From: an uncultured Alloprevotella sp.
GTDB lineage: Bacteria > Bacteroidota > Bacteroidia > Bacteroidales > Bacteroidaceae
Assembly (NCBI GenBank): GCA_944322325.1
Contig: CALUOQ010000002.1
Span: forward strand, 186,001 to 250,000
Reading direction: 5' to 3'
DNA: 64,000 nucleotides
Shown: in pieces, positions 1,755-47,436 of the stretch
Position numbering within the stretch: the first letter of the stretch is position 1
Layout of the letters: the number at the start of each line of letters is the position of its first letter
Program-made: the position numbers and the translations under genes
The notes under the pieces: generated by a model
Database searches by the model: none
Told to the model about the DNA's origin: nothing
Seen by the model: the letters and a program-made list of their open reading frames with translations, nothing else

Positions 1755-1817
1755 ACAAGTACTACGCCCGTTTTTCCTATCGCAGCGATAGAAAAAACGG
1801 GCGTAGTACTTGTTTTT
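1755..1817. repeat. Modular 21-bp palindromic repeat, copy A (3 units)
   Basis: Three 21-bp units (1755-1775, 1776-1796, 1797-1817) form a palindrome: 30-nt arms 1753-1782 and 1786-1815 around a 3-nt centre, with one G.U-type mismatch. The left arm begins ACAAGTACTACGCCCG, the centre is CTATCGCAGCGATAG and the right arm is CGGGCGTAGTACTTGT. A T-run follows, so this copy could terminate deoC transcription, and by symmetry polA. The same module recurs at 8651, 12712, 17800 and 46345. Read in the deoC direction all three units are open in the heptapeptide frame (TSTTPVF, PIAAIEK, TGVVLVF). Confidence 0.9.
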
Positions 1818-1898
1818 TCTCCCAGTGGACTCGTTTATTTTACGACGCTGAGGGGACTAACGGGAGCTATGGGACTGACGAGCGGAACGGTGACCGCC

Positions 1899-4661
1899 TC
1901 AATGAGCCTCCAGCCAGTTGTCGCCCCAGCCGCAGTCTGCTTTCAGCGGGACACTCATCGCAAAAGCGCCCTCCATCTCCCGGATGACCAGCGCTTCCAT
2001 GCGCTCGCGTTCCTCGGGGACAACGCTGAAATTCAGTTCGTCGTGCACTTGCAGCACCATTTTCGAACGCAGCCCCTCTGCTTTCATTCTTTCGTAGATA
2101 CGGACCATGGCAACCTTGATTATGTCCGCCGCCGTGCCCTGTATAGGGGCGTTGATGGCGTTGCGCTCGGCGTAACCGCGGACGGTGGCATTGCGCGACG
2201 CGATGTCGGGCAGGTAACGCCGGCGACCGAAGGCCGTTTCCACATACCCCCGCTCGCGCGCCCGCTCAATGCTCTCGTCCATATAGCGTTTGACGCCGGG
2301 ATACGTGGCGAAGTAGTTGTCAATCAGATCGCGGGCTTCGCCGCGCGAAACGCCCATACGCTCGGCCAGCCCAAAGGCCGAGATTCCGTAAATGATGCCG
2401 AAGTTGGCCGTTTTCGCTTTGCGGCGCTCGTCGCGCGTTACGTCGGCGATGTCCTTGTGGAAGATGCGCGCCGCCGTCGCAGCGTGGATGTCGTCGCCCT
2501 CCCGGAAGGCTTCAATCAGGTGGCTGTCGCCACTCAGGTGCGCCATGATGCGCAACTCTATCTGTGAATAGTCGGCCGAGAAGAACAGGCATCCGTCGTC
2601 CGGAACAAAGGCTTTGCGAATCTCGCGGCCGTCCTCGCCACGCACAGGGATGTTCTGCAAATTCGGATTGCTGGACGAGAGGCGGCCTGTCGCCGTGACG
2701 GCTTGGTTGAACGACGTGTGCAGGTGGCCCGTCGCCGGATTCACCAGTTTGGGCAAGGCCTCAATGTACGTTCCCATTAGCTTTTTCAGCCCGCGGTAAG
2801 CCAGAATTTTGTCCACCACCGGGTGCGCCGTTCGCAGGGCTTCGAGCACTTCTTCCGACGTTACGTACTGACCCTTTTTCGTGCGGCGGGCCTTTTCGGT
2901 CACCTTGAGCTCGTCAAACAGCACTTCGCCCACCTGCCGAGGCGAACCGATGTTGAATTCGTGCCCAGCCATGGCGTACACCTCCGCCTCAATCTGACTC
3001 AGCCGCTCGCCGAACAGGCGTCCCGTCGCTTCGAGCGCCTGCGTGTCGAGCCGGACGCCCCACCGCTCCATAGCCACCAGCACACGCACCAGCGGCAACT
3101 CCACTTCGCGGAGCAGGCGGTCGGCCTCGGGCGGCAGTTCCCGCAACAACCGATGGTAGAGCCGCAAGGTCACATCGGCGTCCTCGCAGGCATACTCGTA
3201 GACCTCGCGAGGCGTAAGGTCGCTCATCAGCTTCTGCCCCCTACCCTTTGGCCCGATGAGTTCCTCGATGTGAATCGTGCGGTAACCGAGATACACTTCG
3301 GCCAGGTAGTCCATGTTGTGCCGTTGCTCCGGTTGCAGCACGTAGTGCGCCAGCATCGTGTCGTAAATCGGTCCGCGCACCTCCACGCCGTAGTTGGCGA
3401 GAACCGTAAGGTCGTACTTGAGGTTCTGCCCGACTTTCAAAATTTTCTCGGACTCAAGGACCGGACGAAACAGGTCGACGACTGCCTGCGCTTTCGCTCC
3501 GTCGGCCGGCACAGCCACGTACCAGGCCTCGCCTTCGGCTACGGCAAAGCTCATTCCGACTAAGCGGGCCGTCACGGCGAGGGTGGAAGTTGTCTCTGTG
3601 TCTAAGCTGAGAATTTCTTTTGTCAATAAAAATTCTCTCAGTGCTGCCATATCCGTTTCTTCCTCAACGAGATGATACGTATGCGGTGTATCCGAAAGGC
3701 TTGTCAGCGTACCGTTTTTTTCTTCTTCCGTCCCGCTCTCGGGAAATGCGGCGAAGAGATCGAGCTGCGCCGTGGGCTTTTTGTCCCCGATGCCTCGGTT
3801 TTTTTTCACACGGTCCGTCAGCGAGCGAAACTCCAGCTCGTCGAACAACTGCGTCAGTCGCTCGAGATCCGGCTCGCGGCTTCTGAAACTCTCGAGGTCG
3901 AGGTCGACAGGCACGTCGGTGCGAATGGTGACCAGGAAACGGGAGAAGCGGATTTTCTCGGCGCCCTCCTCGATCCTACGACGCATGGCGCCCTTCAGCT
4001 GAGCCGTCGCGTCGAGCAGGGCGTCGACCGAGCCAAACTCGGCGATGAGCTTGGCCGCCGTCTTCTCGCCCACGCCGGGACAGCCGGGCACGTTGTCCGA
4101 CGCGTCGCCCATGAGCGCCAACAGATCGACCATCTGCTCCGTACGGGCGATGCCGTACTTTTCGCAAACCTCCTGCGGGCCCATCACGTCGAAGCCGCCG
4201 CCTTGCTTGGGGCGGTACATGTGGATGCGGTCGGTAACCAGCTGGCCATAGTCCTTATCGGGCGTCATCATGAACGTCGCGACACCCCGCTCCGAAGCCT
4301 GCCGCGCCAACGTGCCGATCACGTCGTCGGCCTCGAAGCCCGGCACTTCGACAATCGGGATACGGTAAGCGCGGACAATATCCTTGATGAGGGGAACCGC
4401 CGCGCGGATGTCCTCGGGCGTAGCCTCGCGCTGGGCCTTATACTCGGGGTAGGCTTCGTGGCGGAAGGTAGGGCCGGGCGGGTCGAAGGCTACGGCAATG
4501 TAGTCCGGATGCTCCTTGACGAGCACCTCCTCCAGCGTGTTGACAAAACCCATCACCGCCGACGTGTTCTGCCCCTTTGAGTTGATGCGCGGAGCGCGGA
4601 TGAAGGCGTAATAGGCTCTATAGATGAGCGCATACGCGTCCAAGAGAAATAACTTTTCCAT
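1899..4661 (-). CDS. polA: DNA polymerase I
   Basis: 920 residues. The N-terminal 5'-3' exonuclease/flap domain covers about residues 1-290 (MEKLFLLDAYALIYRAYYAF start, helix-hairpin-helix region). The 3'-5' proofreading domain is apparently active: its DxE motif is intact in SLDTETT, and further acidic residues lie in YDTMLAHY and CEDADVTLRLYH. The polymerase domain has motif A (FFSADYSQIELRIMAHLS), motif B (KTANFGIIYG) and motif C (LQVHDEL). It functions in Okazaki-fragment processing and repair synthesis. The start at 4661 is used because upstream in-frame sequence is unconserved and would overlap the divergent promoter region. It is divergent from the polyprenyl synthetase and convergent with deoC. 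Confidence 0.97.
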   Translation of the reverse strand: MEKLFLLDAYALIYRAYYAFIRAPRINSKGQNTSAVMGFVNTLEEVLVKEHPDYIAVAFDPPGPTFRHEAYPEYKAQREATPEDIRAAVPLIKDIVRAYRIPIVEVPGFEADDVIGTLARQASERGVATFMMTPDKDYGQLVTDRIHMYRPKQGGGFDVMGPQEVCEKYGIARTEQMVDLLALMGDASDNVPGCPGVGEKTAAKLIAEFGSVDALLDATAQLKGAMRRRIEEGAEKIRFSRFLVTIRTDVPVDLDLESFRSREPDLERLTQLFDELEFRSLTDRVKKNRGIGDKKPTAQLDLFAAFPESGTEEEKNGTLTSLSDTPHTYHLVEEETDMAALREFLLTKEILSLDTETTSTLAVTARLVGMSFAVAEGEAWYVAVPADGAKAQAVVDLFRPVLESEKILKVGQNLKYDLTVLANYGVEVRGPIYDTMLAHYVLQPEQRHNMDYLAEVYLGYRTIHIEELIGPKGRGQKLMSDLTPREVYEYACEDADVTLRLYHRLLRELPPEADRLLREVELPLVRVLVAMERWGVRLDTQALEATGRLFGERLSQIEAEVYAMAGHEFNIGSPRQVGEVLFDELKVTEKARRTKKGQYVTSEEVLEALRTAHPVVDKILAYRGLKKLMGTYIEALPKLVNPATGHLHTSFNQAVTATGRLSSSNPNLQNIPVRGEDGREIRKAFVPDDGCLFFSADYSQIELRIMAHLSGDSHLIEAFREGDDIHAATAARIFHKDIADVTRDERRKAKTANFGIIYGISAFGLAERMGVSRGEARDLIDNYFATYPGVKRYMDESIERARERGYVETAFGRRRYLPDIASRNATVRGYAERNAINAPIQGTAADIIKVAMVRIYERMKAEGLRSKMVLQVHDELNFSVVPEERERMEALVIREMEGAFAMSVPLKADCGWGDNWLEAH

Positions 4662-4733
4662 TACGATTGGCGTTTGTAGCGTAAAAATACTCATATTTGT
4701 CGGGGTGCCGATAAGACGGCGCGACTTTTTTCG

Positions 4734-4741
4734 TACTTTTG
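4734..4741 (+). promoter_or_regulatory. Bacteroidota -7 element for polyprenyl synthetase gene
   Basis: TACTTTTG matches the Bacteroidota sigma-ABfr -7 consensus TAnnTTTG, 20 bp before the ATG at 4762. No clear TTTG -33 box is present at the expected spacing. Confidence 0.6.
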
Positions 4742-4761
4742 CAACTAAATTTTTTCCCTCT

Positions 4762-5739
4762 ATGGCTACGTTGTCACTCATCAGACGCCCCATCGAAAGC
4801 GAACTTGCCGACTATAAGAAAGTCTTCGACGCCACTTTGCAACACCCCGACGGCTTGTTGGGAAGCGCACTGACGCACATCCGAAACCGGCAAGGCAAGA
4901 TGATGCGCCCCATCCTTGTGCTGCTCACGGCCAAGGCCACGGGAGGCGTCAACGAGACTGCCATACACTCGGCCGTGACGCTCGAACTGCTCCACACGGC
5001 AAGCCTCGTGCACGACGACATCGTCGACGAGAGCGACGAACGCCGCGGCCAGGCCTCGGTCAACGCCGTCTACGACAACAAGGTGGCCGTCCTCGTGGGC
5101 GACTACCTGCTTTCCAGTTCGCTCGAGCAGGCCGCCCTGACCGGCGACGCCCACATCGTCGCACGCATCGCGCAACTGGGCAAATCGCTCTCCGAGGGCG
5201 AAATTCTGCAACTGTCGAACATCCATACCGAGACCGTGAGCGAGGAGGCATACTTTACCATCATCCGCCAGAAGACAGCGGCCCTCTTCGCCACCTGCGC
5301 CGAACTGGGCGCCATCGCCACGGGCGCCACGCCTGAAGTTGCCGCTACGGCGCGCGAACTCGGCGAGGTCATCGGCATCTGCTTCCAAATCCGCGACGAC
5401 ATCTTCGACTACTACGAGCAGGCCGCCATCGGGAAACCCACGGGCAACGACATGGCCGAAGGCAAGCTGACCTTGCCGGCCATCTACGCCCTGAACCACG
5501 CGGCCGACGCCGAGATGGACCGTCTGGCCTCGCTCGTCAAGTCCGGCAAGGCTTCGCCCGACGACATCGCCCGCCTCGTGGCTTTCACCAAATCGGCCGG
5601 CGGCATCGACTACGCCGAACGCGTGATGCGCGACTACGGCCGGCGCGGTCACGAGCTGGCCCGCACGCTCGCTGGTGACGGCGAGGTAGGCCAGGCCCTC
5701 ACCGAATACGTGGACTACGTCGTCGAGCGCAACATGTAG
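4762..5739 (+). CDS. trans-polyprenyl diphosphate synthase (octaprenyl/heptaprenyl type)
   Basis: 325 residues, the usual length for long-chain trans-prenyltransferases. It condenses IPP units onto an allylic diphosphate, most likely to make the menaquinone side chain. Both aspartate-rich motifs are present: the first in HDDIVDESDERR and the second in QIRDDIFDYY. MRPILVLL and KLTLPAIYAL are also family-typical. The start is at MATLSL because the -7 box TACTTTTG ends 20 bp upstream; an earlier in-frame ATG lies within polA. Chain length cannot be fixed from sequence alone, so no symbol is assigned (ispB or hepT-like). Followed by a strong bidirectional hairpin. Confidence 0.92.
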   Translation: MATLSLIRRPIESELADYKKVFDATLQHPDGLLGSALTHIRNRQGKMMRPILVLLTAKATGGVNETAIHSAVTLELLHTASLVHDDIVDESDERRGQASVNAVYDNKVAVLVGDYLLSSSLEQAALTGDAHIVARIAQLGKSLSEGEILQLSNIHTETVSEEAYFTIIRQKTAALFATCAELGAIATGATPEVAATARELGEVIGICFQIRDDIFDYYEQAAIGKPTGNDMAEGKLTLPAIYALNHAADAEMDRLASLVKSGKASPDDIARLVAFTKSAGGIDYAERVMRDYGRRGHELARTLAGDGEVGQALTEYVDYVVERNM

Positions 5740-5761
5740 TTCCCCGCCCCCTTCTATCACT

Positions 5762-5810
5762 AACGACGTGGGGTGCATCTCCGGAAGTCCGGGATGCACC
5801 CCACGTCGTT
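5762..5810. terminator. Bidirectional terminator hairpin
   Basis: Perfect 18-bp stem (5762-5779 with 5793-5810; arm begins AACGACGTGGGGTGCATC) and a 13-nt loop, followed by TTTCG on the plus side. It lies between the convergent polyprenyl synthetase and flavodiiron genes, so it can serve both. Confidence 0.85.
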
Positions 5811-5832
5811 TTCGTCGTACCTGCCGCGCGGA

Positions 5833-7069: not shown

Positions 7070-8404
7070 TCAGGCCTCGGGCGCTTCGGGCTCAACGCCC
7101 TGCAACGTGGCGGACGACGCGGCGGTGATGCGCAGGCGCACGTAGTCGCCGGGGCGGTGCGTGCCGCGGTCGAAAACGACCACCTTGTTCTGCTCCGTAC
7201 GGCCGAAGAGCTGCTCGCGGGAACGTTTGCTCACTCCCTCGGCGAGCACCTCGACCGTCTGACCTACGCAGCGCTGGTTGCTCGCGGCGCTCAGGCGGTT
7301 TTGCAGGGCGATGAGTTCCTCCAGCCGGCGCACCTTGACTTCTTCGGGCACGTCGTCGGGCAAGTGGCGGGCGGCGTAAGTGCCGGGACGCTCGCTGTAT
7401 TTGAAGAGAAACGCCGAGTCGTAGGCGCACTCCTCCATGAGCGAGAGCGTCTGGCGGTGGTCGTCCTCCGTCTCGGAGCAGTAGCCCGCAAAGATGTCGG
7501 TCGAGAGGCCACAGTCGGGCACGATGCGGCGAATGGCGGCGACGCGGTCCAGATACCAGGCCCGTGTGTACTTACGGTTCATAAGCCTGAGAATGCGGTC
7601 CGAGCCGCTCTGCACGGGCAGGTGTATGTGGCGACACACGTTCGGCTCCTCGGCGATGACGTGCAGCGTCGCGTCGCTCATGTCCTTAGGGTGCGACGTC
7701 GTGAACCTTACGCGCAGCGTCGGCACAGCCTGCGCCACGCGTCGCAGGAGGGCCGGGAAGTCGACCTCGGCACCGCCTTCGCCCTGCCAGCGGTAGGAGT
7801 TGACGTTCTGCCCCAGCAGCGTCACCTCGCGGTATCCGCGTTCGGCCAGGTCGCGCACCTCGCGGAGGATGCTGTCGACATCGCGCGAGCGCTCGCGGCC
7901 GCGCGTATAGGGCACGATACAGTAGTGGCAGAAATTGTTGCAGCCGCGCGTGATGCTGACAAAACCCGACAGGCGGTTGCCGCAGTAGCGCTCGGGCACG
8001 ACGTCGCGATAGGTCTCCGTAGTGGAGAGGGCCACGTCGATAGCCTTATGCCCCGTCTCGGCCTGGGCGACGAGGTCGGGCAGACTCAGGTAGGCGTCGG
8101 GACCGGCGACGAGATCGGCGCCATGGCGGTTAAGCAAGTCGTCCTTGACGCGCTCGGCCATGCAGCCCAGCACGCCGACAATCATGCGACGCCCCTTGCG
8201 GCGCTGCGCCGTCAGTGTCTCGAGCCGGTGCAGTATCTTCTGTTCGGCATTGTCGCGCACCGAGCAGGTGTTCAGGAACACCGCGTCGGCCTCGGCCTCC
8301 GTCGCGCAGGGTTCGTAGCCCGCCATGCGCATCACCGAGGCCACCACCTCGCTGTCCGCCACGTTCATCTGGCAACCGTAGGTCTCTATGTACAGTTTCT
8401 TCAT
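7070..8404 (-). CDS. miaB: tRNA-2-methylthio-N6-isopentenyladenosine synthase
   Basis: 444 residues. Radical-SAM methylthiotransferase acting on i6A37 of tRNAs reading UNN codons. The N-terminal UPF0004 domain carries the three cysteines of the auxiliary [4Fe-4S] cluster (YGCQMN, NTCSVR, LGCMAE). The radical-SAM cluster motif is CNNFCHYC near residue 150, and a TRAM RNA-binding domain occupies roughly the last 65 residues. The start at 8404 gives the conserved MKKLYIETYGCQMN; the in-frame ATG 7 codons upstream overlaps the promoter. A -7 box TACCTTTG lies 18 bp upstream. Confidence 0.96.
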   Translation of the reverse strand: MKKLYIETYGCQMNVADSEVVASVMRMAGYEPCATEAEADAVFLNTCSVRDNAEQKILHRLETLTAQRRKGRRMIVGVLGCMAERVKDDLLNRHGADLVAGPDAYLSLPDLVAQAETGHKAIDVALSTTETYRDVVPERYCGNRLSGFVSITRGCNNFCHYCIVPYTRGRERSRDVDSILREVRDLAERGYREVTLLGQNVNSYRWQGEGGAEVDFPALLRRVAQAVPTLRVRFTTSHPKDMSDATLHVIAEEPNVCRHIHLPVQSGSDRILRLMNRKYTRAWYLDRVAAIRRIVPDCGLSTDIFAGYCSETEDDHRQTLSLMEECAYDSAFLFKYSERPGTYAARHLPDDVPEEVKVRRLEELIALQNRLSAASNQRCVGQTVEVLAEGVSKRSREQLFGRTEQNKVVVFDRGTHRPGDYVRLRITAASSATLQGVEPEAPEA

Positions 8405-8422
8405 GCTTACGGATTTTCCGGG

Positions 8423-8650: not shown

Positions 8651-8734
8651 ACAAGTGCAGCGCCCGTTCTCACAAGTACTACGATAGTTCTCACAAGTAC
8701 TACGACAGTTTTTACGGGGACTGCGCCCGTCGCG
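8651..8734 (+). repeat. Modular 21-bp repeat, copy B (4 direct units, intergenic)
   Basis: Four exact 21-bp steps: 8651-8671, 8672-8692, 8693-8713, 8714-8734. Units 1-3 begin ACAAGT (unit 2 ACAAGTACTACGATAG, unit 3 ACAAGTACTACGACAG) and unit 4 begins ACGGGGACTGCG. The order and the final ACGGGGACT box match the copies inside ispG and folK. It is not a hairpin and does not sit behind a gene, so a terminator role is unlikely. The heptad frame is open (TSAAPVL, TSTTIVL, TSTTTVF, TGTAPVA), although no gene is evident here. Confidence 0.9.
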
Positions 8735-8962: not shown

Positions 8963-10516
8963 ATGAGAAATACTGTGCTCACCTGCCTGCTGGCCGCCTT
9001 GGCCCTGCTGATGCCGGCACCAGCCGCAGCCCAGGGCATGTTTGTCCCGACGGACACGGCTGTGCGACGCGGCACCCTGCCGAACGGACTGGCGTACTAC
9101 GTCCGCCGCAACGCGCAGCCCAGCGGCCGGGCCGACTTCCATCTGGTCCTGAAAGCCGGGTCGTTGCAGGAGGAGGACAGTGAGCGCGGCGTGGCCCTCT
9201 TTGTGGCGCGCATGGGCCTGACGAGCACCGCGCATTTTCCCGCCGGCGCCCTGAACGCCTACTGCGCCAGCCTCGGCGTGAAGGAGGACGACGGCCTCGA
9301 CTACGCCGTCTCCTACGACCAGACGCTCTACCACCTCGTCAACATCCCCGTCGGCCGCCCGGCCACGGTGGACTCCTGCCTGCTCGTTCTTCGCGACTGG
9401 GCCGGGGACATCCGTTTCGGCGCCGACGAGGTCGAAACGGCGCGCTGCCTCGTCCGCCAGGCACAGGCGCACTTCCCGTCTGGCCTACAGCGCATCTGCA
9501 TGCGCCACCTGACAACCCTTTACTCCGGCTCGCGCTACGCGGAGCGCGAGCCCGCCGGCCTGGCGTCGGTCGTCGACACGTGCGGTCCGGCGACGCTGCG
9601 CGCTTTCTGCGAGCGGTGGTACCGCCCTGACCTGATGGGTGTCGTTGTCGTAGGCGACGTCGACCCCGACGCCGTCGCAAGCACCATCCAGTACCTCTTC
9701 GACGACCTCGACATGCCCGAACGGCCGACCCCGGTCCTCGCTTACCCCGTGCCCGACAACGTCCGGCCCATCTACGTCGCCGACAGCGACAGCACCGTCC
9801 GCGAACCGCTTTTCAGGGTCTCTTTCAAGATACCCGCCTACCCCGACTCGCTGAAGGGGGCCGTCGCCTATCTCGGCATGCAGTTCCTCAAACACGCCGC
9901 CATACGTATGCTCAACGACCGCCTCAGCCAGGCGCAGCTGCAAGCGGGCTGCCCCTTCGTCGAGGCGAGCAGTTCGATAATGCCTTACGGTGAGGCGAAA
10001 ACCAAGGACGCCCTGGTCCTCACCATCAAGGCGCGGCCCGGCGCCGAAACCGCCGCCCTGCGCGCCGTGCTCGGGGAGGTGGAGCGCATCAAGCGCGACG
10101 GTTTCACCATCAGGGAGTACGACCGCACACGCCGGGAACTGATGGAACAGCTCGAGGCGCGCCGCAACAACCGCGTCCGGCTGAACAACGGATTCTTCGC
10201 GCAGCAATGCATCGACCACTTCCTGCGCGGCGAGCCCTTGGTGTCGACGGCCGACCACTACTCGCTGATGAAGCAATTCACGCCCATGATGCCCGTCGAC
10301 GCGGTCAGCCGGCTCTTTGCGCGCATCGTGGCCCGCACGGACACAAACTTTGTCGTCACGGCCTTCTACCCCGCCACCGAGGGAGCCAACCGCCCCAGTG
10401 TGGACGAGCTGCGCCGCGCCGTGGCCAACGCTGCCACCACCCTGCCCGACCCCTACGTCGACCCGAGAGACGACGGGCCCCTCGGGCCGTCCCCGGACGC
10501 TCCTGCCGGCCCCTGA
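8963..10516 (+). CDS. M16 peptidase-like protein lacking the zinc site (secreted, half-length)
   Basis: 517 residues with a clear signal peptide (MRNTVLTCLLAALALLMPAP, cleavage probable after AAAQ). The fold-typical stretch GSLQEEDSERGVALFVARM aligns with the M16 zinc-binding region, but HxxEH is replaced by L79-F-V-A-R83. The distal glutamate region is also changed (VETARCLVRQAQ). It therefore cannot bind zinc in the usual way. Bacteroidota M16 enzymes of this type are usually near 930 residues with two halves; here only the first half plus one C-terminal M16 domain remain. It may act as a non-catalytic partner or substrate-binding subunit, as in mitochondrial MPP-alpha; this is inference. 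The frame is intact, so it is not an obvious pseudogene. It precedes dsbD by 80 bp. Confidence 0.82.
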   Translation: MRNTVLTCLLAALALLMPAPAAAQGMFVPTDTAVRRGTLPNGLAYYVRRNAQPSGRADFHLVLKAGSLQEEDSERGVALFVARMGLTSTAHFPAGALNAYCASLGVKEDDGLDYAVSYDQTLYHLVNIPVGRPATVDSCLLVLRDWAGDIRFGADEVETARCLVRQAQAHFPSGLQRICMRHLTTLYSGSRYAEREPAGLASVVDTCGPATLRAFCERWYRPDLMGVVVVGDVDPDAVASTIQYLFDDLDMPERPTPVLAYPVPDNVRPIYVADSDSTVREPLFRVSFKIPAYPDSLKGAVAYLGMQFLKHAAIRMLNDRLSQAQLQAGCPFVEASSSIMPYGEAKTKDALVLTIKARPGAETAALRAVLGEVERIKRDGFTIREYDRTRRELMEQLEARRNNRVRLNNGFFAQQCIDHFLRGEPLVSTADHYSLMKQFTPMMPVDAVSRLFARIVARTDTNFVVTAFYPATEGANRPSVDELRRAVANAATTLPDPYVDPRDDGPLGPSPDAPAGP

Positions 10517-10596: not shown

Positions 10597-12678
10597 ATGA
10601 AACGGACCTTATCCTTGTTCGCATTACTGCTGACACTGGCCTGGCTGCCCTTGGCGGCACAACTCCAGACCCCCGTGAAATTCGCGACCTCGCAAAAACG
10701 CGTGTCGCCCACGGAAATCGACCTTGTCTTTACCGCCACCATCGACGCCGGCTGGCACGTGTACTCCACCGGGCTGGGCGACGGCGGCCCCACCTCGGCC
10801 ACGTTTGCCACCGACGCCATCGAGGGCGCCGAACTCGTCGGGACGCTCAAGGCCGGCCCCGGCGAAAAGGACAAGCACGACGCCATCTTCGACATGCCGG
10901 TGCGCTACTTCGAAGGGACGGCCACCTTCACCCAACGCATCCGCCTGACAGCACCGACGTACTCGGTGAAAGGCTACCTGACCTACGGCGCCTGCAACGA
11001 CGAGAACTGCCTGCCGCCCACCAACGTCGACGTCACCGTGAGCGGATCCGACGGCCCGAAAGCCGCCTCCGCCGAAGCAAAGGCCGACGCAGCCCCCGCA
11101 GCCCCGGCCGCCACTGCGTCCGAAAAGACCGACGTGGCCATCTTCAACGGCCCCGCCGCGATGGTCGACACCGCCGCTGCCGCCGACACGACTGCCGCTG
11201 CGACAGCCGCCTCCGCCACGGCCGCAGACCTGTCGGCCGGTGCCCCGAGCCTGTGGCAGCCTGTCGTCGACGAGCTCCGCGCTTTCGACGACAGCGCGCC
11301 CTCGGACCAGCGCTCGTGGTGGGTAGTCTTCCTGCTGGGCTTCGTCGGTGGCGTCGTAGCGCTCTTTACCCCCTGCGTTTGGCCCATTATCCCAATGACG
11401 GTCAGCTTCTTCCTGAAACGTTCGTCCAGCCGGCGGCGCGGCGTGCGCGACGCCATGACGTACGGCGCCGCTATCGTGGTTATCTACGTGGGGCTGGGCG
11501 TCATCATCACGTCGCTGTTCGGCGCCAGCGCCCTTAACGACCTGTCGACGAACGCCGTGTTCAACATCCTGTTCTTCCTGATGCTCGTCGTGTTCGCCGC
11601 GAGCTTCTTCGGCGGCTTTGAGATTACGCTTCCTTCGTCCTGGAGCGACAAAGTCGACAGCAAGGCCGAAGCGACGACCGGCCTGCTGAGTATCTTCCTC
11701 ATGGCGTTCACGCTGTCGCTCGTATCGTTCTCGTGCACAGGTCCTATCATCGGTTTCCTGCTCGTCGAGGTCGGCACGTCGGGCAGCATCCTGGCCCCGA
11801 CCATCGGCATGTTGGGCTTCGCCATCGCGCTGGCCCTGCCGTTTACGCTCTTTGCGCTGTTCCCCACGTGGCTGAAGAGCGCACCCAAAAGCGGCGGCTG
11901 GATGAACGTCATCAAGGTGACACTCGGTTTCCTGGAGTTGGCGTTCGCGCTGAAGTTCCTTTCGGTGGCCGACCTGGCGTACGGCTGGCACCTGCTGGAC
12001 CGCGAGACGTTCCTGGCGCTTTGGATTGTCATCTTCGCCCTGCTGGGCTTCTACCTGCTGGGCAAGCTGAAATTCCCGCACGACGACGACACGACGCACA
12101 CCAGCGTGCCGCGCTTCTTCCTCGGCTTGGTGTCGCTGGCCTTCGCCGTCTACATGGTTCCGGGCCTTTGGGGCGCACCGCTCAAGGCAGTGAGCGCCTT
12201 TGCGCCGCCTATGTCGACGCAGGACTTCAACCTCGACCGTCAGTCGGACGTCGAAGCCCAGTTCAAGGACTACGACGCCGGCATGACCTATGCCGCCGAG
12301 ACGGGCAAACCCGTGCTTATCGACTTCACCGGGCATGGCTGCGTGAACTGCCGGAAGATGGAGCTGGCCGTTTGGCGCGACCCGTCCGTGGCGCGGCTCA
12401 TTAAGGAAAAGTACGTGCTCATCTCCCTTTATGTCGACGACAAGACCCGCCTGCCCGAGCCCATCGTCGTCAAGGAAAACGGGCAGGACGTCACGCTGCG
12501 CACCGTCGGCGACAAATGGAGCTACCTGCAACGCGCGAAGTTCGGCGCCAACGCCCAGCCTTTCTACGTCCTGCTCGACAACGAGGGCAAGCCGCTCAAC
12601 AAGTCCTACTCCTACGACGAAGACGTGCAGAAGTACGTCGACTTCCTCGAAGAGGGACTCGAGCGTTACCGTCAATAA
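10597..12678 (+). CDS. dsbD: thiol:disulfide interchange protein DsbD
   Basis: 693 residues. Order: signal peptide (1-21); DsbD-alpha periplasmic domain (about 25-150) with its cysteine pair in YGACNDENCLPP; an Ala/Thr-rich low-complexity linker (about 150-215); a multi-span membrane domain (about 240-540) with redox cysteines in CVWPIIPMT and FSCTGPIIG; and a C-terminal thioredoxin domain with C582-V-N-C585. It moves electrons from cytoplasmic thioredoxin across the inner membrane to periplasmic disulfide reductases. The long Ala-rich linker is unusual in composition. Repeat copy C (12712-12774) follows 33 bp after the stop and can terminate transcription. Confidence 0.95.
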   Translation: MKRTLSLFALLLTLAWLPLAAQLQTPVKFATSQKRVSPTEIDLVFTATIDAGWHVYSTGLGDGGPTSATFATDAIEGAELVGTLKAGPGEKDKHDAIFDMPVRYFEGTATFTQRIRLTAPTYSVKGYLTYGACNDENCLPPTNVDVTVSGSDGPKAASAEAKADAAPAAPAATASEKTDVAIFNGPAAMVDTAAAADTTAAATAASATAADLSAGAPSLWQPVVDELRAFDDSAPSDQRSWWVVFLLGFVGGVVALFTPCVWPIIPMTVSFFLKRSSSRRRGVRDAMTYGAAIVVIYVGLGVIITSLFGASALNDLSTNAVFNILFFLMLVVFAASFFGGFEITLPSSWSDKVDSKAEATTGLLSIFLMAFTLSLVSFSCTGPIIGFLLVEVGTSGSILAPTIGMLGFAIALALPFTLFALFPTWLKSAPKSGGWMNVIKVTLGFLELAFALKFLSVADLAYGWHLLDRETFLALWIVIFALLGFYLLGKLKFPHDDDTTHTSVPRFFLGLVSLAFAVYMVPGLWGAPLKAVSAFAPPMSTQDFNLDRQSDVEAQFKDYDAGMTYAAETGKPVLIDFTGHGCVNCRKMELAVWRDPSVARLIKEKYVLISLYVDDKTRLPEPIVVKENGQDVTLRTVGDKWSYLQRAKFGANAQPFYVLLDNEGKPLNKSYSYDEDVQKYVDFLEEGLERYRQ

Positions 12679-12711: not shown

Positions 12712-12774
12712 ACAAGTACTACGACAGTTTTTCCTATCGCAGCGATAGAAAAAACTGTCGTAGTACTTGTTTTT
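12712..12774. repeat. Modular 21-bp palindromic repeat, copy C (3 units)
   Basis: Three 21-bp units (12712-12732, 12733-12753, 12754-12774) with 28-nt arms 12712-12739 and 12743-12770 around a 3-nt centre. The centre is identical to copy A (CTATCGCAGCGATAG). The arms differ from copy A by ACAG replacing CCCG on the left and CTGT replacing CGGG on the right, a compensated four-base change. Followed by TTTTTA, so it can act as the dsbD terminator. Confidence 0.9.
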
Positions 12775-12991: not shown

Positions 12992-13864
12992 ATGACGAAA
13001 AAGAAAAGACGCAGCACCGGCGCATTCAACGCCATTACCTCGTGCATCAGCACAACCTTGGTACTTGTCCTTCTGGGGCTCATCGTGTTTTTCGTGACGA
13101 CAGCCCACAACCTGAGCCGCAGCGTCCGCGAGAATTTCACCGTGCAGGTGATGCTCTCGGACAGCCTTGGCGACAAGCAGACGCGCGCCATGCAGGCCGA
13201 ACTGAGCCGCGAGCCGTACGTGCGCCGCGTCTCGTACACCTCGAAGGACGACGCCACGCGCGAACAGGCCGAAGCGCTGGGCACGGACCCCGCCGAATTT
13301 CTCGGCACCAGTCCCATTCCCGCCTCGTTCGAGCTTCACCTGAAGGCCGACTACGCCAACAACGACAGTCTGGCCCGCTACCTCCCCGCCCTCACCGGCC
13401 GGAGCGAAATCATCGACGTCGTGTATCCGCGGGACTTGATGGACAACGTCAACCACAACATCCGGCAAATCAGCGCGGTGCTCCTCATTGTCGCCGTGCT
13501 GCTCACGTTCGTATCGTTCTCCCTGATCAACAACACCATGAGGCTGAACATCTATGCCCGCCGCTTCACCATACACACGATGAAGATGGTCGGCGCGCGG
13601 CGCAGCTTCATCCGCCGGCCGTTCATGGCGCGTGCCTTCTGGATCGGTGCCATCTCGGCGCTGCTGGCCGACGGGCTCCTCGCCGGCGGCATCATCCTGC
13701 TGCTCGACTGGGACCCGGGACTAACCGGGCTTATCGACCTCATCGTCTGGGGCGCCACGATGGGCAGCGTCGCCGTGTGCGGCATCCTGCTCACGGTAAT
13801 CTGCGCCTTCTTCTCCGTCAACAAACATCTGCGCATGAACACTGCGCAAGTCTTCGTCAGCTGA
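12992..13864 (+). CDS. ftsX: cell division protein FtsX
   Basis: 290 residues. Permease-like partner of the ATPase FtsE; the complex controls peptidoglycan hydrolases at the septum. Visible: a basic N-terminus, TM1 at about residues 20-42, an extracytoplasmic FtsX domain with the segment DLMDNVNHNIRQ, and three C-terminal membrane spans with the FtsX/MacB-like loop RLNIYARRFTIHTMKMVGA. The start MTKKKRRSTGAFNA is preferred over MEYPPES (12953) because the latter would begin only 13 bp after the -7 box. First gene of ftsX-DUF3098-uppP-truB-queA-folK. ftsE is not in the window. Confidence 0.92.
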   Translation: MTKKKRRSTGAFNAITSCISTTLVLVLLGLIVFFVTTAHNLSRSVRENFTVQVMLSDSLGDKQTRAMQAELSREPYVRRVSYTSKDDATREQAEALGTDPAEFLGTSPIPASFELHLKADYANNDSLARYLPALTGRSEIIDVVYPRDLMDNVNHNIRQISAVLLIVAVLLTFVSFSLINNTMRLNIYARRFTIHTMKMVGARRSFIRRPFMARAFWIGAISALLADGLLAGGIILLLDWDPGLTGLIDLIVWGATMGSVAVCGILLTVICAFFSVNKHLRMNTAQVFVS

Positions 13865-16830: not shown

Positions 16831-17904
16831 ATGCCCACCCTGCTGCTCTCGCTCGGCGCCAACCTGGGCCACCGCGCGGCCACCCTCGCGACGGCCTGCG
16901 ACCTGCTCAGCCTCATGTTGGGCAGCCGCCCCGTGGTGTCGGACTTCTACGAGAGCGAACCCATGGGCTTCGCGTCGGACCACCGCTTCCTGAACTGCGC
17001 CGCACGCCTCGAATGCAGTGCGCAGCCGGCCGACGTGCTGGCGGTGTGCTGCCACGTGGAGCGCCTGCTGGGCCGCACACAGAAAAGCCACAACGGCCAA
17101 CACACCGACCGCCCCGTCGACATCGACCTGCTGGCCTACGGCGACACCGTCATGCAGACACCGGACCTTACCCTGCCCCACCCGCGCATGGGCAAACGGT
17201 CCTTTGTCCTCCTGCCGCTGGCCGAGATTGCCGGCGACCTGCGCCACCCCACCACAGGGCTGACCTACGACGAAATGGCCGCCCGCTGCACACAAGGCGA
17301 AGCCACGCGCATCGGAGGATCGGCGCCCCAGCTCTGCCGGCGCCTGACCGAGGCCGACGCCACGCCGCATACGACCGAAGGACTCAACCGGCTGCTCGCC
17401 CAACTCAGTTCCCGCCGTCTCACCTGGCAGCCCGACAGCCTGCGCGCCCTGCTTCGCCACGACGCACTGCGCCTGCTGGTGCTGACCGACGCCAAGGGCG
17501 ACCTCATCGGCACAGCCTCCCTGCTCGTCACGCCCCAGCTGACGGGCCTGAAAAGCCACCTGGAGGACGTCGTGGTCGACACGGCCTGGCGCGGCAAGGG
17601 GCTGGGCGCACGCCTCGTCGCCAACGCACTGGCCCACGCCGCGCGTGAAGGCATCGGCAGCCTCGAACTGACCTCGCGCCCCGAGCGCGAAGCGGCCAAC
17701 GCGCTCTACCGCAAAATGGGCTTTGCCCCACGCCCGACCAACGTCTACCGCACCACGGGCGAAGCACTGACACGATGGGCCTCCGCAGCAGGCGCACTCA
17801 CAAGTGCCGCGACAGGAAAAACAAGTACTACGATAGAAATTTCTGGGACTACGATAGAAAAAACGGGGACTACACTTGTAAAAACAGGGTCGCCGACAGG
17901 ATAA
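16831..17904 (+). CDS. folK: FolK-GNAT fusion with a repeat-derived C-terminal tail
   Basis: 357 residues. Residues 1-150 are 6-hydroxymethyl-7,8-dihydropterin pyrophosphokinase (folate synthesis): LSLGANLG at the start, RTQKSHNGQHTDRPVDIDLL and LPHPRMGKRSFVLLPL. Residues about 180-310 look like a GNAT acetyltransferase: LEDVVVDTAWRGKGLGARL contains the acetyl-CoA loop RGKGLG, and ANALYRKMGF is a typical late motif. Residues 324-357 are heptapeptide repeats (TSAATGK, TSTTIEI, SGTTIEK, TGTTLVK, then TGSPTG and stop) encoded by the dispersed 21-bp repeat; the TAA falls in the fifth unit. The start at 16831 lies 7 bp after queA; an ATG at 16813 inside queA is less likely. Whether the GNAT part is active is unknown. 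Confidence 0.88.
   Translation: MPTLLLSLGANLGHRAATLATACDLLSLMLGSRPVVSDFYESEPMGFASDHRFLNCAARLECSAQPADVLAVCCHVERLLGRTQKSHNGQHTDRPVDIDLLAYGDTVMQTPDLTLPHPRMGKRSFVLLPLAEIAGDLRHPTTGLTYDEMAARCTQGEATRIGGSAPQLCRRLTEADATPHTTEGLNRLLAQLSSRRLTWQPDSLRALLRHDALRLLVLTDAKGDLIGTASLLVTPQLTGLKSHLEDVVVDTAWRGKGLGARLVANALAHAAREGIGSLELTSRPEREAANALYRKMGFAPRPTNVYRTTGEALTRWASAAGALTSAATGKTSTTIEISGTTIEKTGTTLVKTGSPTG
17800..17904 (+). repeat. Modular 21-bp repeat, copy D (5 units, inside folK)
   Basis: Units start at 17800, 17821, 17842, 17863 and 17884, all in phase with the folK codons. Unit 1 begins ACAAGTGCCGCGACAGG, unit 2 ACAAGTACTACGATAG, unit 3 TCTGGGACTACGATAG, unit 4 ACGGGGACTAC and unit 5 ACAGGGTCGCCGACAGG. Unit 5 mirrors unit 1 and ends in the folK stop TAA where unit 1 has AAA. 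The array is direct, not palindromic. Spacing, order and the ACGGGGACTAC box match copies B and E. Confidence 0.92.
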
Positions 17905-42428: not shown

Positions 42429-42436
42429 TACTTTTG
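42429..42436 (+). promoter_or_regulatory. Bacteroidota -7 element for tRNA-Gln
   Basis: TACTTTTG, 29 bp before the mature tRNA 5' end. A CTTG (42408-42411) sits upstream at 17-bp spacing as a weak -33. Confidence 0.6.
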
Positions 42437-42465
42437 CACCGCTATCTAACGATAAGCACCGAGTC

Positions 42466-42537
42466 TGTTCCGTGGTGTAATGGTCAGCACTAGAGTTTTT
42501 GGTTCTCTCAGTCTCTGTTCGAATCAGGGCGGAACAA
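42466..42537 (+). tRNA. tRNA-Gln (UUG)
   Basis: 72 nt. Acceptor TGTTCCG pairs fully with CGGAACA (42530-42536), followed by discriminator A. The anticodon loop TTTTGGT gives anticodon TTG. The T-arm CTCTG-TTCGAAT-CAGGG is intact. The anticodon stem has a T.T apposition at its top pair. CCA is not encoded. Confidence 0.93.
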
Positions 42538-42547
42538 CTCCACAAGG

Positions 42548-42580
42548 GGCTGGGCGTCGAGACGTCCAGCCTTATTTTTT
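42548..42580 (+). terminator. Terminator after tRNA-Gln
   Basis: Stem GGCTGGGCGT (42548-42557) with ACGTCCAGCC (42562-42571), one mismatch, loop CGAG, followed by TTATTTTTT. Confidence 0.85.
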
Positions 42581-42603
42581 ACCTTAAACCCTACATTGAC
42601 ATT

Positions 42604-44229: not shown

Positions 44230-44317
44230 AAGCGTCGCCGGCCCTCCCTCAAGACGGACAGACACGAAAAAAACGCAAATTCCGCCCCGAAACCAACCGC
44301 CGTATCCATTTATCTAT

Positions 44318-44325
44318 TAACTTTG
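44318..44325 (+). promoter_or_regulatory. Bacteroidota -7 element for duplicated-domain lipoprotein
   Basis: TAACTTTG, with a long leader of about 117 bp to the ATG at 44443. The 213-bp gap also has a GC-rich patch, CCCCGCCCAGGGGCC, of unclear role. Confidence 0.5.
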
Positions 44326-44442
44326 CTTTTAGAAAATACGAAAAAGGACATTACAACTTCGAGGCCACCCCGCCCAGGGGCCCTCGCCGGAGAAAGTTTT
44401 AATTAATCACTGTTTGTATTAACCATCAAAAACAAAGTTATC

Positions 44443-45348
44443 ATGAAAGAACTACTTAAAACCACCAGCCTGCTGCTCCTTCTATTGGTTAGCGGTTTCA
44501 CGCTGAGCTCCTGTAGCGACGACGACAATGAAGCCGGCCCCCTGCCTGAACTTGTCGGTACATGGGTCTGCACTGACTCCTACGAAGCCTCCTACGAGGA
44601 CGGCCAAAAAATTGATGAGTACACCGACGAGGACCAAGGCCGCAGTTTCACGCTTAATGCCAACGGTACGCTGAGTATGGGCAACTACACCGTCGGCTCG
44701 TGGAGCAGTGACGGCGGCACCATGTGGATTACTGTCACCGATGAGGACGGCACGTGGACCACGACCTACAGCATGCGCAAGCACTCCGCCGACAGCTACA
44801 CACTCAGCTATGACATCAGCTACAACGAGGACGGCAGCAGTTACCGCGAAGTCTACAGCATGACCCTCCAACGCCAAGGCACCGGCTCCGACACTGACGA
44901 TGACGACGACGTGTCCATACCCGTTGACTCCACCATAGGACCCGACCTCGGCCAAGTCCCCACCAGAGACCCTGGTTACGCAACCGGAGTTTCCATCACT
45001 ACGGACGAAGTTGTCGGCAGTTGGACTCTCGTCAGCGGCTACTCCGCCGCCTACCAGCACGGCGCGCTTCTTGACAGTGAAGTTTACACCCGCGACGAGG
45101 GTGTAGGCGACGTAATGACCCTCAACGCCGATGGGACTTGTACCGTATCGAACGGGCTCAACGGTACATGGCGCTTAGTAGGCTCGCATCTATACCTCAC
45201 CGTCAGCGAGGACGGCTACGCTGAAACCGTTGACTACATCGTCGCCGCACGCAGCGCCGACAAAGTCGAATTGCGCATCGACTACACCGTCGACCATCCT
45301 ACAAGCTCCATTCACGGCGTCGAGAGTATCACTTTCCAGCGCATATAA
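44443..45348 (+). CDS. Lipocalin-like lipoprotein with two tandem domains, probably surface exposed
   Basis: 301 residues. The lipobox LSSC is followed by SDDDNE, an acidic stretch like the Bacteroidota lipoprotein export signal, suggesting surface display. Two similar beta-barrel-type domains follow: LVGTWVCTDSYEASYEDG (about 36-145) and VVGSWTLVSGYSAAYQHG (about 185-301), each continuing with FTLNANGTLS or MTLNADGTCT, a G(T/S)W turn, and an ending like SMTLQR or SITFQR. They resemble the lipocalin-like/DUF4923-type domains common in gut Bacteroidota. The acidic linker GTGSDTDDDDDVS joins the halves. Ligand unknown. Confidence 0.78.
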   Translation: MKELLKTTSLLLLLLVSGFTLSSCSDDDNEAGPLPELVGTWVCTDSYEASYEDGQKIDEYTDEDQGRSFTLNANGTLSMGNYTVGSWSSDGGTMWITVTDEDGTWTTTYSMRKHSADSYTLSYDISYNEDGSSYREVYSMTLQRQGTGSDTDDDDDVSIPVDSTIGPDLGQVPTRDPGYATGVSITTDEVVGSWTLVSGYSAAYQHGALLDSEVYTRDEGVGDVMTLNADGTCTVSNGLNGTWRLVGSHLYLTVSEDGYAETVDYIVAARSADKVELRIDYTVDHPTSSIHGVESITFQRI

Positions 45349-45406
45349 TCCCTTTACAGTACATACTTTTCATTCGAGAAAAGAGAACGCGAATTCCAAA
45401 ATTAGC

Positions 45407-45452
45407 AAAAGCAAGCCCACCCAGTCTCGTTCGACCGGGTGGGCTTGCTTTT
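45407..45452. terminator. Bidirectional terminator between lipoprotein and ispG
   Basis: 16-bp perfect stem AAAAGCAAGCCCACCC (45407-45422) with GGGTGGGCTTGCTTTT (45437-45452), 14-nt loop. U-runs exist in both orientations. Confidence 0.92.
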
Positions 45453-45519
45453 GATTATTAGGGAACTGCGGCAATAACCTCCCAAAACGGTGTTCGCCAT
45501 CCTGAAAGCCTGTTTTCCC

Positions 45520-47436
45520 TCACGCGCGACCGTCGGCCTCGATGAGCCGGAGGAGGCGATCGACGGCCTCGGCCTCGGGAATGTTGCGCTCGACGCACTG
45601 CTTGCCCCTATAGAGACTGACTTTACCACGGGCGGCACCGACGTAGCCGTAGTCGGCATCGGCCATTTCGCCGGGGCCATTGACGATGCACCCCATGACG
45701 GCGATCTTGAGCCCGACAAGGTGGGCCGTGGCAGCCTTGACGCGGGCTATGGTAGCCTGGAGGTCGTAGAGCGTACGGCCACAGCCGGGACAGCTGATGT
45801 ATTCCGTGCGGGTGGTGCGGACGCGGGTGGCCTGGAGGATGGCAAAGGCGATGTCGTCGCGCCGGGAGGCCGGAACGGGGATCTGTCCGGCAGGAGTGGA
45901 GGTCCAAAGCATGAGGCCGTCTGCCAGCCCGTCAAAGAAGAGAGGAGCGGCCTCGGCGGCAGCTTCGAGCATGAGGTCCTCGGTTTCCTCGAGGCCGTGG
46001 CTGAACTGCTGGAAAACGACTACAGGGTTCGACAAGCGCTCAGTCCATAATTCATGGACAAGGGCACGGAGCTCGCCCAAACGGTTGGCGTGGGCGGACT
46101 GGGCGATGACGACGGTCTCGGGATGGTGGCGCAGACAAGCGCGTACTTCCTCATCCAGCGCGGGATACGTCAGGAACAAGAACTTCAGCGGAGCGTTTAA
46201 CGCAGGTAGGAACAAGAGGGTCTCGGGAGTAAAAGCGGGGTAGGTATCGGCCTCGCCCGTCCAGACTGGGGCGTCAACGATGAAACGACGGCCTTGGCGA
46301 ACATCCGGTTCAGGCAGTTGGTTTCCGCAATAAATATAGTCCGGCTGGACAGGTGTAGTCCCCGTATTTTCTATCGTAGCGATAGATTTTCCTGTCGCTA
46401 CGATAGGATTTTCTGTCGTAGTACTTGTTTTTTCATCCAGTGCGGCGCGAATAACGACGGGAGGATTCGTACCGCCGATGTCCAACACCGGGCAAGTGGG
46501 ACGTCGTTCGGGATGCAGATAGTCAAACTCCGGTGCAGGCGTGCCAGGGATAAAATCGTGGCCGGCACGGCGGACAACGTACGAAGCAAGCTTATAGGCC
46601 ACAGGGACCTCGCGCTCGGGCTCTTCACTGAGCGATACGCGCAGGGTGTCGCCGATACCGTCGGCCAGGAGGGCACCGATGCCGGCAGCGCTCTTTATGC
46701 GTCCGTCTTCGCCCTCACCGGCTTCGGTGACACCGAGGTGCAGGGGATAGTCCATCCCCTCGGCTTGCATGGCGTGGCAAAGCAGGCGCACAGAACGGAC
46801 CATGACGGAGGTATTGCTGGCCTTGACGGAGATGACCACATCGGGGAAGTGCTCGCGTTGACAGACGCGCAAAAACTCCATGCAGCTTTCGACGATACCC
46901 TCGGGGGTGTCGCCATAACGGCTCATGATGCGGTCGGAAAGCGAACCGTGGTTCACACCGATGCGCAGCGCCGTGTGGTGCGTACGGCAGATGGCAAGCA
47001 GCCTGCGAAACCGTGTCTCAAGGCGGGCAAGCTCGGCGGTATACTCCTCGTCGGTATAGGTCAGATGTTTGAACTGCCGCGCGGGATCGACGTAGTTACC
47101 GGGATTGATGCGCACCTTTTCGACAACGGTTGCTGCGACGTCGGCCACGTCGGGATTGAAGTGCACGTCAGCCACGAGGGGGCGGTCGTAGCCTGCCTCG
47201 TGAAGGCGGCGGCGAATCTCGCGCAGGTTCTCGGCCTCGCGCGTACCCTGTGTGGTGAGGCGTACGTAGTCTGCGCCGGCATCGAATATGCGTTTGCACT
47301 GTGCGACGCAGGCTTCAGTGTCCATGGTCGAGGCGGTCGTCATGCTTTGCAGGCGGAGCGGCTGGTCGCCGCCCAAAGGACGGTTACCGACGTGTACCTC
47401 GTGGGAATGGCGGGGCTGATAGTTGAAGAGCGACAT
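45520..47436 (-). CDS. ispG: (E)-4-hydroxy-3-methylbut-2-enyl-diphosphate synthase, large form, with repeat insertion
   Basis: 638 residues. MEP-pathway enzyme converting MEcPP to HMBPP with a [4Fe-4S] cluster. The N-terminal TIM barrel (about 1-320) has VKASNTSVMVRSVRLL and GVTEAGEGEDGRIKSA. The extra central domain of the large form lies at about 365-550. The C-terminal iron-sulfur domain has CPGCGRTLYDLQ and MGCIVNGPGEMADADYG. At the junction of the barrel and the central domain (residues 337-364) sits an insert of four heptapeptides, TSTTTEN, PIVATGK, SIATIEN and TGTTPVQ, encoded by the dispersed 21-bp repeat. The frame is preserved, so the enzyme is presumably functional. Last gene of rpoN-PAP2-purE-ispG. 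Confidence 0.95.
   Translation of the reverse strand: MSLFNYQPRHSHEVHVGNRPLGGDQPLRLQSMTTASTMDTEACVAQCKRIFDAGADYVRLTTQGTREAENLREIRRRLHEAGYDRPLVADVHFNPDVADVAATVVEKVRINPGNYVDPARQFKHLTYTDEEYTAELARLETRFRRLLAICRTHHTALRIGVNHGSLSDRIMSRYGDTPEGIVESCMEFLRVCQREHFPDVVISVKASNTSVMVRSVRLLCHAMQAEGMDYPLHLGVTEAGEGEDGRIKSAAGIGALLADGIGDTLRVSLSEEPEREVPVAYKLASYVVRRAGHDFIPGTPAPEFDYLHPERRPTCPVLDIGGTNPPVVIRAALDEKTSTTTENPIVATGKSIATIENTGTTPVQPDYIYCGNQLPEPDVRQGRRFIVDAPVWTGEADTYPAFTPETLLFLPALNAPLKFLFLTYPALDEEVRACLRHHPETVVIAQSAHANRLGELRALVHELWTERLSNPVVVFQQFSHGLEETEDLMLEAAAEAAPLFFDGLADGLMLWTSTPAGQIPVPASRRDDIAFAILQATRVRTTRTEYISCPGCGRTLYDLQATIARVKAATAHLVGLKIAVMGCIVNGPGEMADADYGYVGAARGKVSLYRGKQCVERNIPEAEAVDRLLRLIEADGRA
46345..46428 (-). 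repeat. Modular 21-bp repeat, copy E (4 units, inside ispG)
   Basis: Read on the coding strand from 46428 down to 46345, four in-phase 21-bp units: unit 1 begins ACAAGTACTACGACAG, unit 2 CCTATCGTAGCGACAGG, unit 3 TCTATCGCTACGATAG and unit 4 ACGGGGACTACACCTGT. Units 2 and 3 use the flipped core (CTATCG...) seen at the centre of palindromic copies A and C, while units 1 and 4 match the first and last units of copies B and D. Flanking IspG sequence on both sides is conserved in kind, marking this as a clean insertion. Confidence 0.92.

Follow-up and report, generated by a model that had tools for sequence, protein, structure and literature searches.

Dispersed arrays of 21-bp modules in an Alloprevotella genome and similarly designed repeat families in related species

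Five modular arrays in the window

The stretch of DNA analysed here (the window; 64,000 nucleotides of contig CALUOQ010000002.1 from an uncultured Alloprevotella sp.) contains five arrays of short modules, designated copies A to E (Table 1). A first-pass annotation of the sequence had placed five copies at these positions, and the module scan calls these five and no other array. Copy A is flanked by convergent genes (794-1720 on the plus strand and 1899-4661 on the minus strand), and its proposed extent required revision, because a degenerate unit precedes it at 1733. Copy B is the direct array in a divergent region that had been described, with genes on the minus strand (7070-8404) and the plus strand (8975-10516) on its two sides; the module scan calls only its inner two units, and the outer two were recognized by eye from the sequence. 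Copy C lies 33 bp past the stop codon of the plus-strand gene 10597-12678 and upstream of the plus-strand gene 12992-13864. Copies A and C had been described as palindromes between genes, and both indeed fold as 59-nt hairpins, with z scores of -11.1 (A) and -12.0 (C) for RNA folding against shuffled sequences; the description is corrected in that C lies between co-directional genes. The direct arrays B and D fold no better than shuffled sequences (z of -1.0 and -1.5). A search of the window with Rfam at the gathering score returns two tRNAs only, and the arrays match no known RNA.

Copies D and E lie inside genes, as annotated. Copy D supplies codons near the C-terminus of its called host gene, which looks to us like a fusion of an HPPK (FolK)-like domain with a GNAT acetyltransferase. 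The host gene of copy E presumably encodes an IspG-like protein, and this gene has matches in 56 of the 58 genomes of the genus, the source genome included. The proposed likeness of B, D and E is retained for the fourth unit, which carries ACGGGGACT, and is not retained for the middle units, which differ.

Table 1. Positions of the arrays and of their host genes in the window
Feature	Position	Strand	Description	Basis
Copy A	1755..1813	.	59-bp palindromic element: arm ACAAGTACTACGCCCG, core CTATCGCAGCGATAG, inverted arm	
Degenerate outer module ACAAGTGCTGCGCCAG	1733..1748	+	Left of copy A	Sequence, module scan
Copy B	8651..8729	+	Direct array, four 21-bp units starting at 8651, 8672, 8693 and 8714	
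Copy C	12712..12770	.	59-bp palindromic element	Sequence, module scan, folding
Copy D	17800..17879	+	Four-unit array, frame 0, translation TSAATGKTSTTIEISGTTIEKTGTTLV	
Copy D host gene	16831..17904	+		Own gene call, translation
Copy E	46349..46428	-	Four-unit array, frame 0 on the minus strand, translation TSTTTENPIVATGKSIATIENTGTTPV	
Copy E host gene	45520..47436	-	638 aa product	

Copy number, module order and gene context in the source genome

The source genome (G000) comprises 2,721,972 bases and is 90.67% complete. The exact sequence ACAAGTACTACGNNNG occurs 222 times (119 + 103) in it, compared with 0 for the control read backward, so the further copies that had been anticipated are abundant, and the proposed modular family is borne out as dispersed, expanded and present in both palindromic and direct form. 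When up to two mismatches are allowed, the same search yields 378 matches, compared with 127 for the control. Arrays, defined as at least two called modules, were collected from a sample of 1,245,828 bases (46% of the genome, including the window), which contains 102 arrays that make up 0.61% of the sampled bases, whereas the reversed sequence contains no multi-module element. Two modules are called in 8 arrays, three in 31, four in 48, five in 12 and six in 3. The module is approximately 16 bp long and is followed by a 5-bp A/T-rich spacer, and the A/T tracts are phased at 21 bp. In agreement with the proposed 21-bp unit, the step between neighbours is 21 bp in 199 of 277 pairs; steps of 22 bp (65 pairs) and 20 bp (8 pairs) occur mostly at changes of orientation.

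The orientation of neighbouring arms that bear ACAAGT, counted by passing over cores and other modules between them, is +- in 71 pairs, ++ in 30, -- in 32 and -+ in none. The absence of the -+ arrangement in G000 indicates that an array is ordered as outward-left arms, core and outward-right arms, and its simplest form is the 59-bp palindrome seen in copies A and C. This strict order is limited to the G000 family and was rejected as a general rule, since the -+ arrangement is present, with the motifs chosen, in 2 of 22 pairs in the related genome G204, 5 of 23 in G015 and 1 of 12 in G099. In G216, the arm order depends on the motif (5 of 5 pairs are +- with one, and 4 are -+ and 4 ++ with another).

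The hairpin form of REPINs and BIMEs, with two inverted arms and a variable core, is found here with a folding z below -3 in 82 of the 102 arrays, and the remaining 20 fall short of this value. An outward ACAAGT is present at 164 of the 204 called array ends. Distant loci share exact matches of up to 65 bp, and 670 pairs have at least 24 bp in common. Among the 24 pairs listed, which omit a 91-bp overlap between two neighbouring elements, exact sharing stops approximately at the ACAAGT/ACTTGT ends, with an overshoot beyond the called array of 0-6 bp in most pairs and of 11 and 20 bp in single cases, and flanks like the leader and tail of a MITE are not seen. The shared extents vary with the pair of loci, which reflects a mosaic. 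The array edges grade into degenerate modules, with the A/T phasing recurring approximately 21 bp beyond the last called module, and the information content is low outside the array ends. Additionally, 70 two-ended elements show no excess of target-site duplication (mean 2.14, compared with 2.23 in shuffled sequences).

According to gene calls from a custom codon-based caller, as opposed to a standard annotator, 93 of the 102 arrays are intergenic, 8 are wholly within genes and 1 overlaps a gene end. All eight in-gene arrays of the 1.25-Mb sample lie in one open frame, as proposed for the family, and ACA AGT ACT ACG is read as part of Thr/Ser/Ala-rich linkers. Seven of the hosts were read and are taken to be HU-like, LysM, DnaX, FolK-GNAT, IspG, alpha-2-macroglobulin-like and 4Fe-4S proteins. 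Of 51 arrays in co-directional gaps, 44 lie closer to the upstream stop (median 66 bp) than to the start (220 bp). Divergent gaps are the most often occupied (26 of 89), compared with 15 of 82 convergent and 52 of 318 co-directional gaps; the arrays are not bound to one gene orientation. A T-rich right flank is present in only 46 of the 102 arrays, and several AT-rich, gene-poor stretches of the sample contain no array.

The dnaX linker of G000 holds an array and was considered as a conserved array site. Among 29 other orthologues, only that of G202 (L279) has a seven-residue repeat by eye, which indicates that the linker is a tolerant place and not a conserved site. The dnaX orthologue of L283 passes the lag-21 threshold through Ala-rich low complexity.

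Sites, spacing and sequence in other species

The G000 array sequence is present in 0 of 12 other genomes of the genus, and the pattern that would have spoken for ordinary conserved sequence, an identical insert at identical positions throughout the distant relatives, is not seen. In the wider family, 9 of 188 other genomes contain one or two matches each, which does not exceed the backward control. A long G000 pattern has 0 matches in viral contigs and also 0 in a set of genome contigs that possibly lacks G000 and its near relatives.

Three observations go beyond the first-pass annotation: related species have arrays of similar design but different letters, sister species share some of the sites, and the arrays keep apart from one another. 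The arm CTGTCAGCCGTCC of G204 occurs at 119.8 per Mb in that genome and at 0 in G000, whereas the arm ACAAGTACTACG occurs at 0 in G204 and at 91.5 per Mb in G000; the core CTGTCGCAGCGACAG is common to both (13.8 and 9.6 per Mb). The G015 unit has 178 matches and only one among 57 other genomes (in G243), and the unit of G210 and G216 has 62 and 93 matches, with single matches in G223 and G230 and 0 in the other 54. A 22-bp family in G043 has 57 matches and single ones in G230 and G240; its backward control has 48 matches in G064, and six further genomes have one or two each. In Hoylesella shahii, a 22-bp unit is present in 45 + 66 copies and in none of 7 other genomes, and palindromic cores at a 22-bp step are found in Bacteroides finegoldii and two Phocaeicola species (3 of 7 genomes). 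Dispersal was counted genome-wide in G000, G015, G210, G216, G043 and H. shahii and partly in B. finegoldii and the two Phocaeicola species. Several Alloprevotella species and H. shahii carry a similar design in different letters, which suggests that the sequence changes between species and the layout is retained.

Sites of period 21, counted unfiltered and therefore containing coding or low-complexity sites by eye (2 of 3 in G099, several in G204 and, for period 22, L143), number 69 in 786 kb of G000, 14 in 217 kb of G204, 8 in 97 kb of G216, and 5, 7 and 3 in 100 kb each of G210, G015 and G099, the last with one clear array by eye. Other named Bacteroidota loci contain 5 such sites in 805 kb (first set) and 5 in 566 kb (second set). 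Period 22 is prominent in the first set (14 in 805 kb, compared with 3 in 566 kb), and these sites fall in Prevotella, Hoylesella, Leyella and Bacteroides loci. Among 20 stretches from 16 further species of the genus, 14 have at least one site of period 21 or 22 (a number that includes some low-complexity and coding sites) and 6 have none, so universality in the genus is not established.

The ispG tree places G000 with G204, G216 with G210 and G099 with G184 as sisters (ultrafast bootstrap of 100 each). The array letters are common to G216 and G210, G000 and G204 have only the core in common, and those of G099 and G184 are similar at one G184 site. At the ispG linker, G000 and G204 carry different 21-bp arrays at the same place, and no array is seen by eye in 28 other orthologues (30 were examined of the 56 matching genomes), so that this array, like a Rickettsia palindromic element, is an in-frame insertion missing from orthologues. 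The remaining evidence for site sharing between G000 and G204 consists of three array-bearing gaps among 34 syntenic ones: arrays are present in both genomes in 2, in G204 only in 1 (17 bp in G000 and 204 bp in G204) and in neither in 31. At a higher identity cut, 30 gaps are left, with the same three bearing arrays. G216 and G210 share a colinear block of 27.5 kb (80.9-92.1% identity in BLAST pieces), in which 7 array sites of G216 are occupied in 5 cases, empty in 1 and filled by another hairpin in 1 in G210; no array restricted to G210 is found in this block. By eye, the central module is flipped between the two species at site 42963, and the G210 array is one unit longer than that of G216 at site 48069. 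Sharing with distant species was rejected, as comparison of G000 with G216, G210, G099 and G015 reveals 0 common sites in 54 syntenic gaps, of which only 5 bear an array in either species (1 in G000 only and 4 in the relative only).

The arrays avoid one another, as seen in a shortage of pairs separated by less than about 3.5 kb. When the G000 arrays are redistributed over length-matched gaps within 30 kb (1000 trials), 18.1 ± 3.3 intervals shorter than 3.5 kb are expected (lowest trial 9), and 5 of 89 are observed. Below 1.5, 2.5 and 5 kb, 1, 3 and 14 intervals are observed, compared with 4.2, 11.0 and 26.5 expected, the length-matched test being weak below 1.5 kb (1 compared with 4.2 ± 1.8). 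Under a looser null that admits any gap of at least 20 bp, 5 of 97 intervals are shorter than 3.5 kb, compared with 24.9 ± 3.6 expected. In G015, 0, 0, 4 and 10 of 60 intervals are shorter than 3, 4.5, 6 and 8 kb, compared with 6.4, 9.3, 12.0 and 15.4 under uniform placement; these positions are a thinned list of exact matches of one 13-mer, five single-site contigs were dropped, and contigs other than C1 and C2 were tested between their outermost sites. The 30 intervals of G204, on short contigs and without a null model, span 1.3-6.7 kb. The data do not establish a regular lattice: the coefficient of variation, at 0.85 compared with 0.99 ± 0.08, is only marginally reduced.

Origin of the arrays and comparison with known systems

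Our tentative preference is for an interspersed mosaic repeat family that resembles BIMEs and REPINs and evolves in concert, without a detectable RAYT in G000, G204 and G015. Each element comprises, in most cases, three to five 21-bp modules, and its arm-core-arm order enables most copies to fold as hairpins or cruciforms. The family was probably passed on vertically, presumably as a whole set, and arrays would persist at some sites across the divergence of sister species while modules are flipped, gained, lost and rewritten in concert genome-wide. The copier would probably be ectopic gene conversion together with template switching between short inverted repeats, which is the most economical mechanism in light of the lack of a Y1 transposase in these three genomes and of an excess of target-site duplication. 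Since the genome comparisons are between species throughout, no copying or insertion event is seen in them, and they do not separate gene conversion from transposition. New sites may be seeded occasionally, with slow gain and loss, and selection would purge copies near starts, near each other or in a harmful frame. Several other Alloprevotella species and, outside the genus, at least H. shahii use a similar design in which the units measure 21 or 22 bp, equivalent to two helical turns, and the letters are their own.

The spacing exclusion might instead be a function and not selection against close repeats, and the arrays may serve the host. An unlikely reading, which we rate second, is that they are chromosome-organising sites, contacted on one face of the DNA at intervals of two helical turns by a putative binder that could be gyrase, a nucleoid protein or an uncharacterized dimer; the spacing would be kept by function, and the letters would drift as the preference of the binder or the shape of the DNA co-evolves. 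Room for such a role is left by the two-turn step, which stays at 21 or 22 bp while the letters change and recurs in the palindromic cores of B. finegoldii and the two Phocaeicola species, and by the exclusion in both G000 and G015; the phased A/T tracts and the independence from gene orientation also agree with it. However, A/T tracts are missing by eye in some units (Leyella), the array-free AT-rich stretches fit either view, and selection against close repeats gives exclusion too. It is rather unlikely that this extends to a Bacteroidaceae class of chromosome-wide, distance-keeping platforms with a step of 21-22 bp, the letters of which are rewritten per species along with a putative binder; the layout and the sites would then be under selection, in parallel with fast-evolving centromeric or PRDM9-type sites.

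The arrays could also be true REPINs whose copier, a RAYT (Y1/HUH transposase), is lost or unassembled in some genomes, but we regard this as quite improbable. They are intergenic and number over 100 per genome in G000, as do REPINs and BIMEs, and inverted arms around a variable core form hairpins, as described for REPINs in the sections of PMC8049555 available. The transposase search, which covered the Y1_Tnp family alone, finds matches in 28 of 58 genomes of the genus, among them the family-bearing G216, G210, G099, G184 and G043, in which a RAYT is possible. However, no Y1_Tnp match is found in G000 (90.7% complete), G204 (86%) or G015 (99%, with its 178 unit matches), and a RAYT was rejected as the driver. 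We know of no REPINs with fixed 21-bp tandem steps. REPINs do occur in E. coli genomes without a RAYT, according to the same part of PMC8049555, and G000 is incomplete, so the missing RAYT lowers the likelihood of membership in the REPIN/BIME class without excluding it. REPINs and BIMEs are described with a constant GTAG or CGTC tag in the portion of PMC3733652 at hand; here, by eye only, GTAG is present inside G000 arms and some G216 variants, and CGTC in G204 and G015 units. With no RAYT in the three genomes and a constant tag not established, the family is not filed as REPIN.

It is distinctly improbable that the arrays spread for use at gene ends, either as intrinsic terminators acting in both directions or as hairpins that stabilise mRNA. 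The hairpins, the proximity of co-directional copies to stop codons and the location of copy A between convergent genes agree with such a role, but divergent gaps are the most often occupied and hold 26 of the 93 intergenic arrays, which is at variance with placement at gene 3' ends only; moreover, the folding of B and D is no stronger than that of shuffled sequences, T-rich right flanks are present in fewer than half of the arrays, and some copies are inside genes. A MITE, that is, an insertion-sequence remnant with ACAAGT/ACTTGT terminal inverted repeats resembling BrickBuilt (a 23-nt tandem array inside a MITE in the part of PMC4596501 consulted), is highly improbable despite the frequent outward ACAAGT ends, given the lack of excess target-site duplication, the absence of a common leader or tail, the graded edges and the other ends of the families in other species. 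A CRISPR was rejected on structure, as consecutive repeats are separated by 5-6 bp of A/T spacer and long unique spacers are absent.

Bacterial interspersed repeats seem to have been studied mainly in enterobacteria, Pseudomonas and Rickettsia. The mosaic family that we favour forms a natural series in several Alloprevotella species and H. shahii, with a similar design, different letters, partly common sites and kept distances. Through this series one can ask by what means more than 100 scattered copies change in concert when no transposase is known for them, and whether a chromosome function underlies the two-turn step and the spacing. As the first-pass annotation had presumed, no published description of such a class of arrays was found in the literature searched; the word Prevotella is absent from the portions available of the texts on RepRanger (PMC12306157) and of a stem-loop survey (PMC2267715).

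Rickettsia palindromic elements, which are palindromes tolerated in frame inside protein genes, had been named as a precedent. The in-frame palindromes are alike, but BIMEs and REPINs are the closer parallel, since few of the present copies are coding (8 of 102 arrays wholly in genes); the modular 21-bp arrays and the different host also set the family apart by description. BrickBuilt, the host of which (Porphyromonas gingivalis) also belongs to the Bacteroidales, is the nearest system in that order, yet it is a MITE with leader and tail. According to the part of PMC4596501 consulted, its short tandem units are likewise dispersed and species-specific, with 19 copies of up to 22.8 repeats, all intergenic, and with a leader and tail of up to 285 and 318 nt and inverted-repeat ends. 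For the family described here, 46% of the genome yields 102 mostly symmetric arrays of 2-6 called modules; neither a leader nor a tail is seen, and parallel families exist in other species. The BIMEs, REPs and REPINs of enterobacteria and Pseudomonas resemble it most closely as dispersed intergenic, hairpin-forming mosaics of oriented short modules, with over 100 copies and lineage-specific sequence, whereas the present arrays are distinguished by no detectable Y1 transposase in three species, the 21- or 22-bp step, the tandem growth of arms, the strict outward order in the G000 family, the spacing exclusion and the in-frame copies.

Repeats in related Alloprevotella genomes

A comparison of two sister species that share an array family of their own reveals an array near position 40647 of contig C26 in G216, whereas the orthologous site in G210 is occupied by a different palindrome, CGAGCGGAGGACTTA..TAAGTCCTCCGCTCG; a second repeat family may use the same sites as the arrays. 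In the dnaX linker of the same-genus genome G202 (locus L279), a 7-residue repeat, PPTGKTS/PPTGATT, is observed, which would correspond to a 21-bp array that keeps the reading frame and is independent of the one in dnaX of our genome.

A TTGTCTTATAGGACAATT-like palindromic motif is common to stretches of G043, which has a 22-bp family of its own, and G114 (L234, position 14439; L230, position 6550), and both positions are period-22 sites. The G043 pattern read backward, a gauge of chance matches, gave 26+22 matches in G064; these possibly represent an unrelated dispersed family of G064 itself.

Array-free stretches of contig C2

The array-free stretches listed below have a GC content of 0.41-0.47 and a called coding fraction of 0.11-0.31, and are possibly acquired DNA.

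AT-rich, gene-poor stretches without arrays
Contig C2	Window
40001-80000	
240001-250000	~54001-64000

Palindromes in Bacteroides and Phocaeicola

Related palindromes, CCACGGCCGTGG, recur at a 22-bp step in Bacteroides finegoldii and two Phocaeicola species, and the filler between them is partly palindromic. Allowing at most 3 mismatches, such arrays occur at 11, 3 and 4 places in the genomes of loci L152, L148 and L145, respectively.
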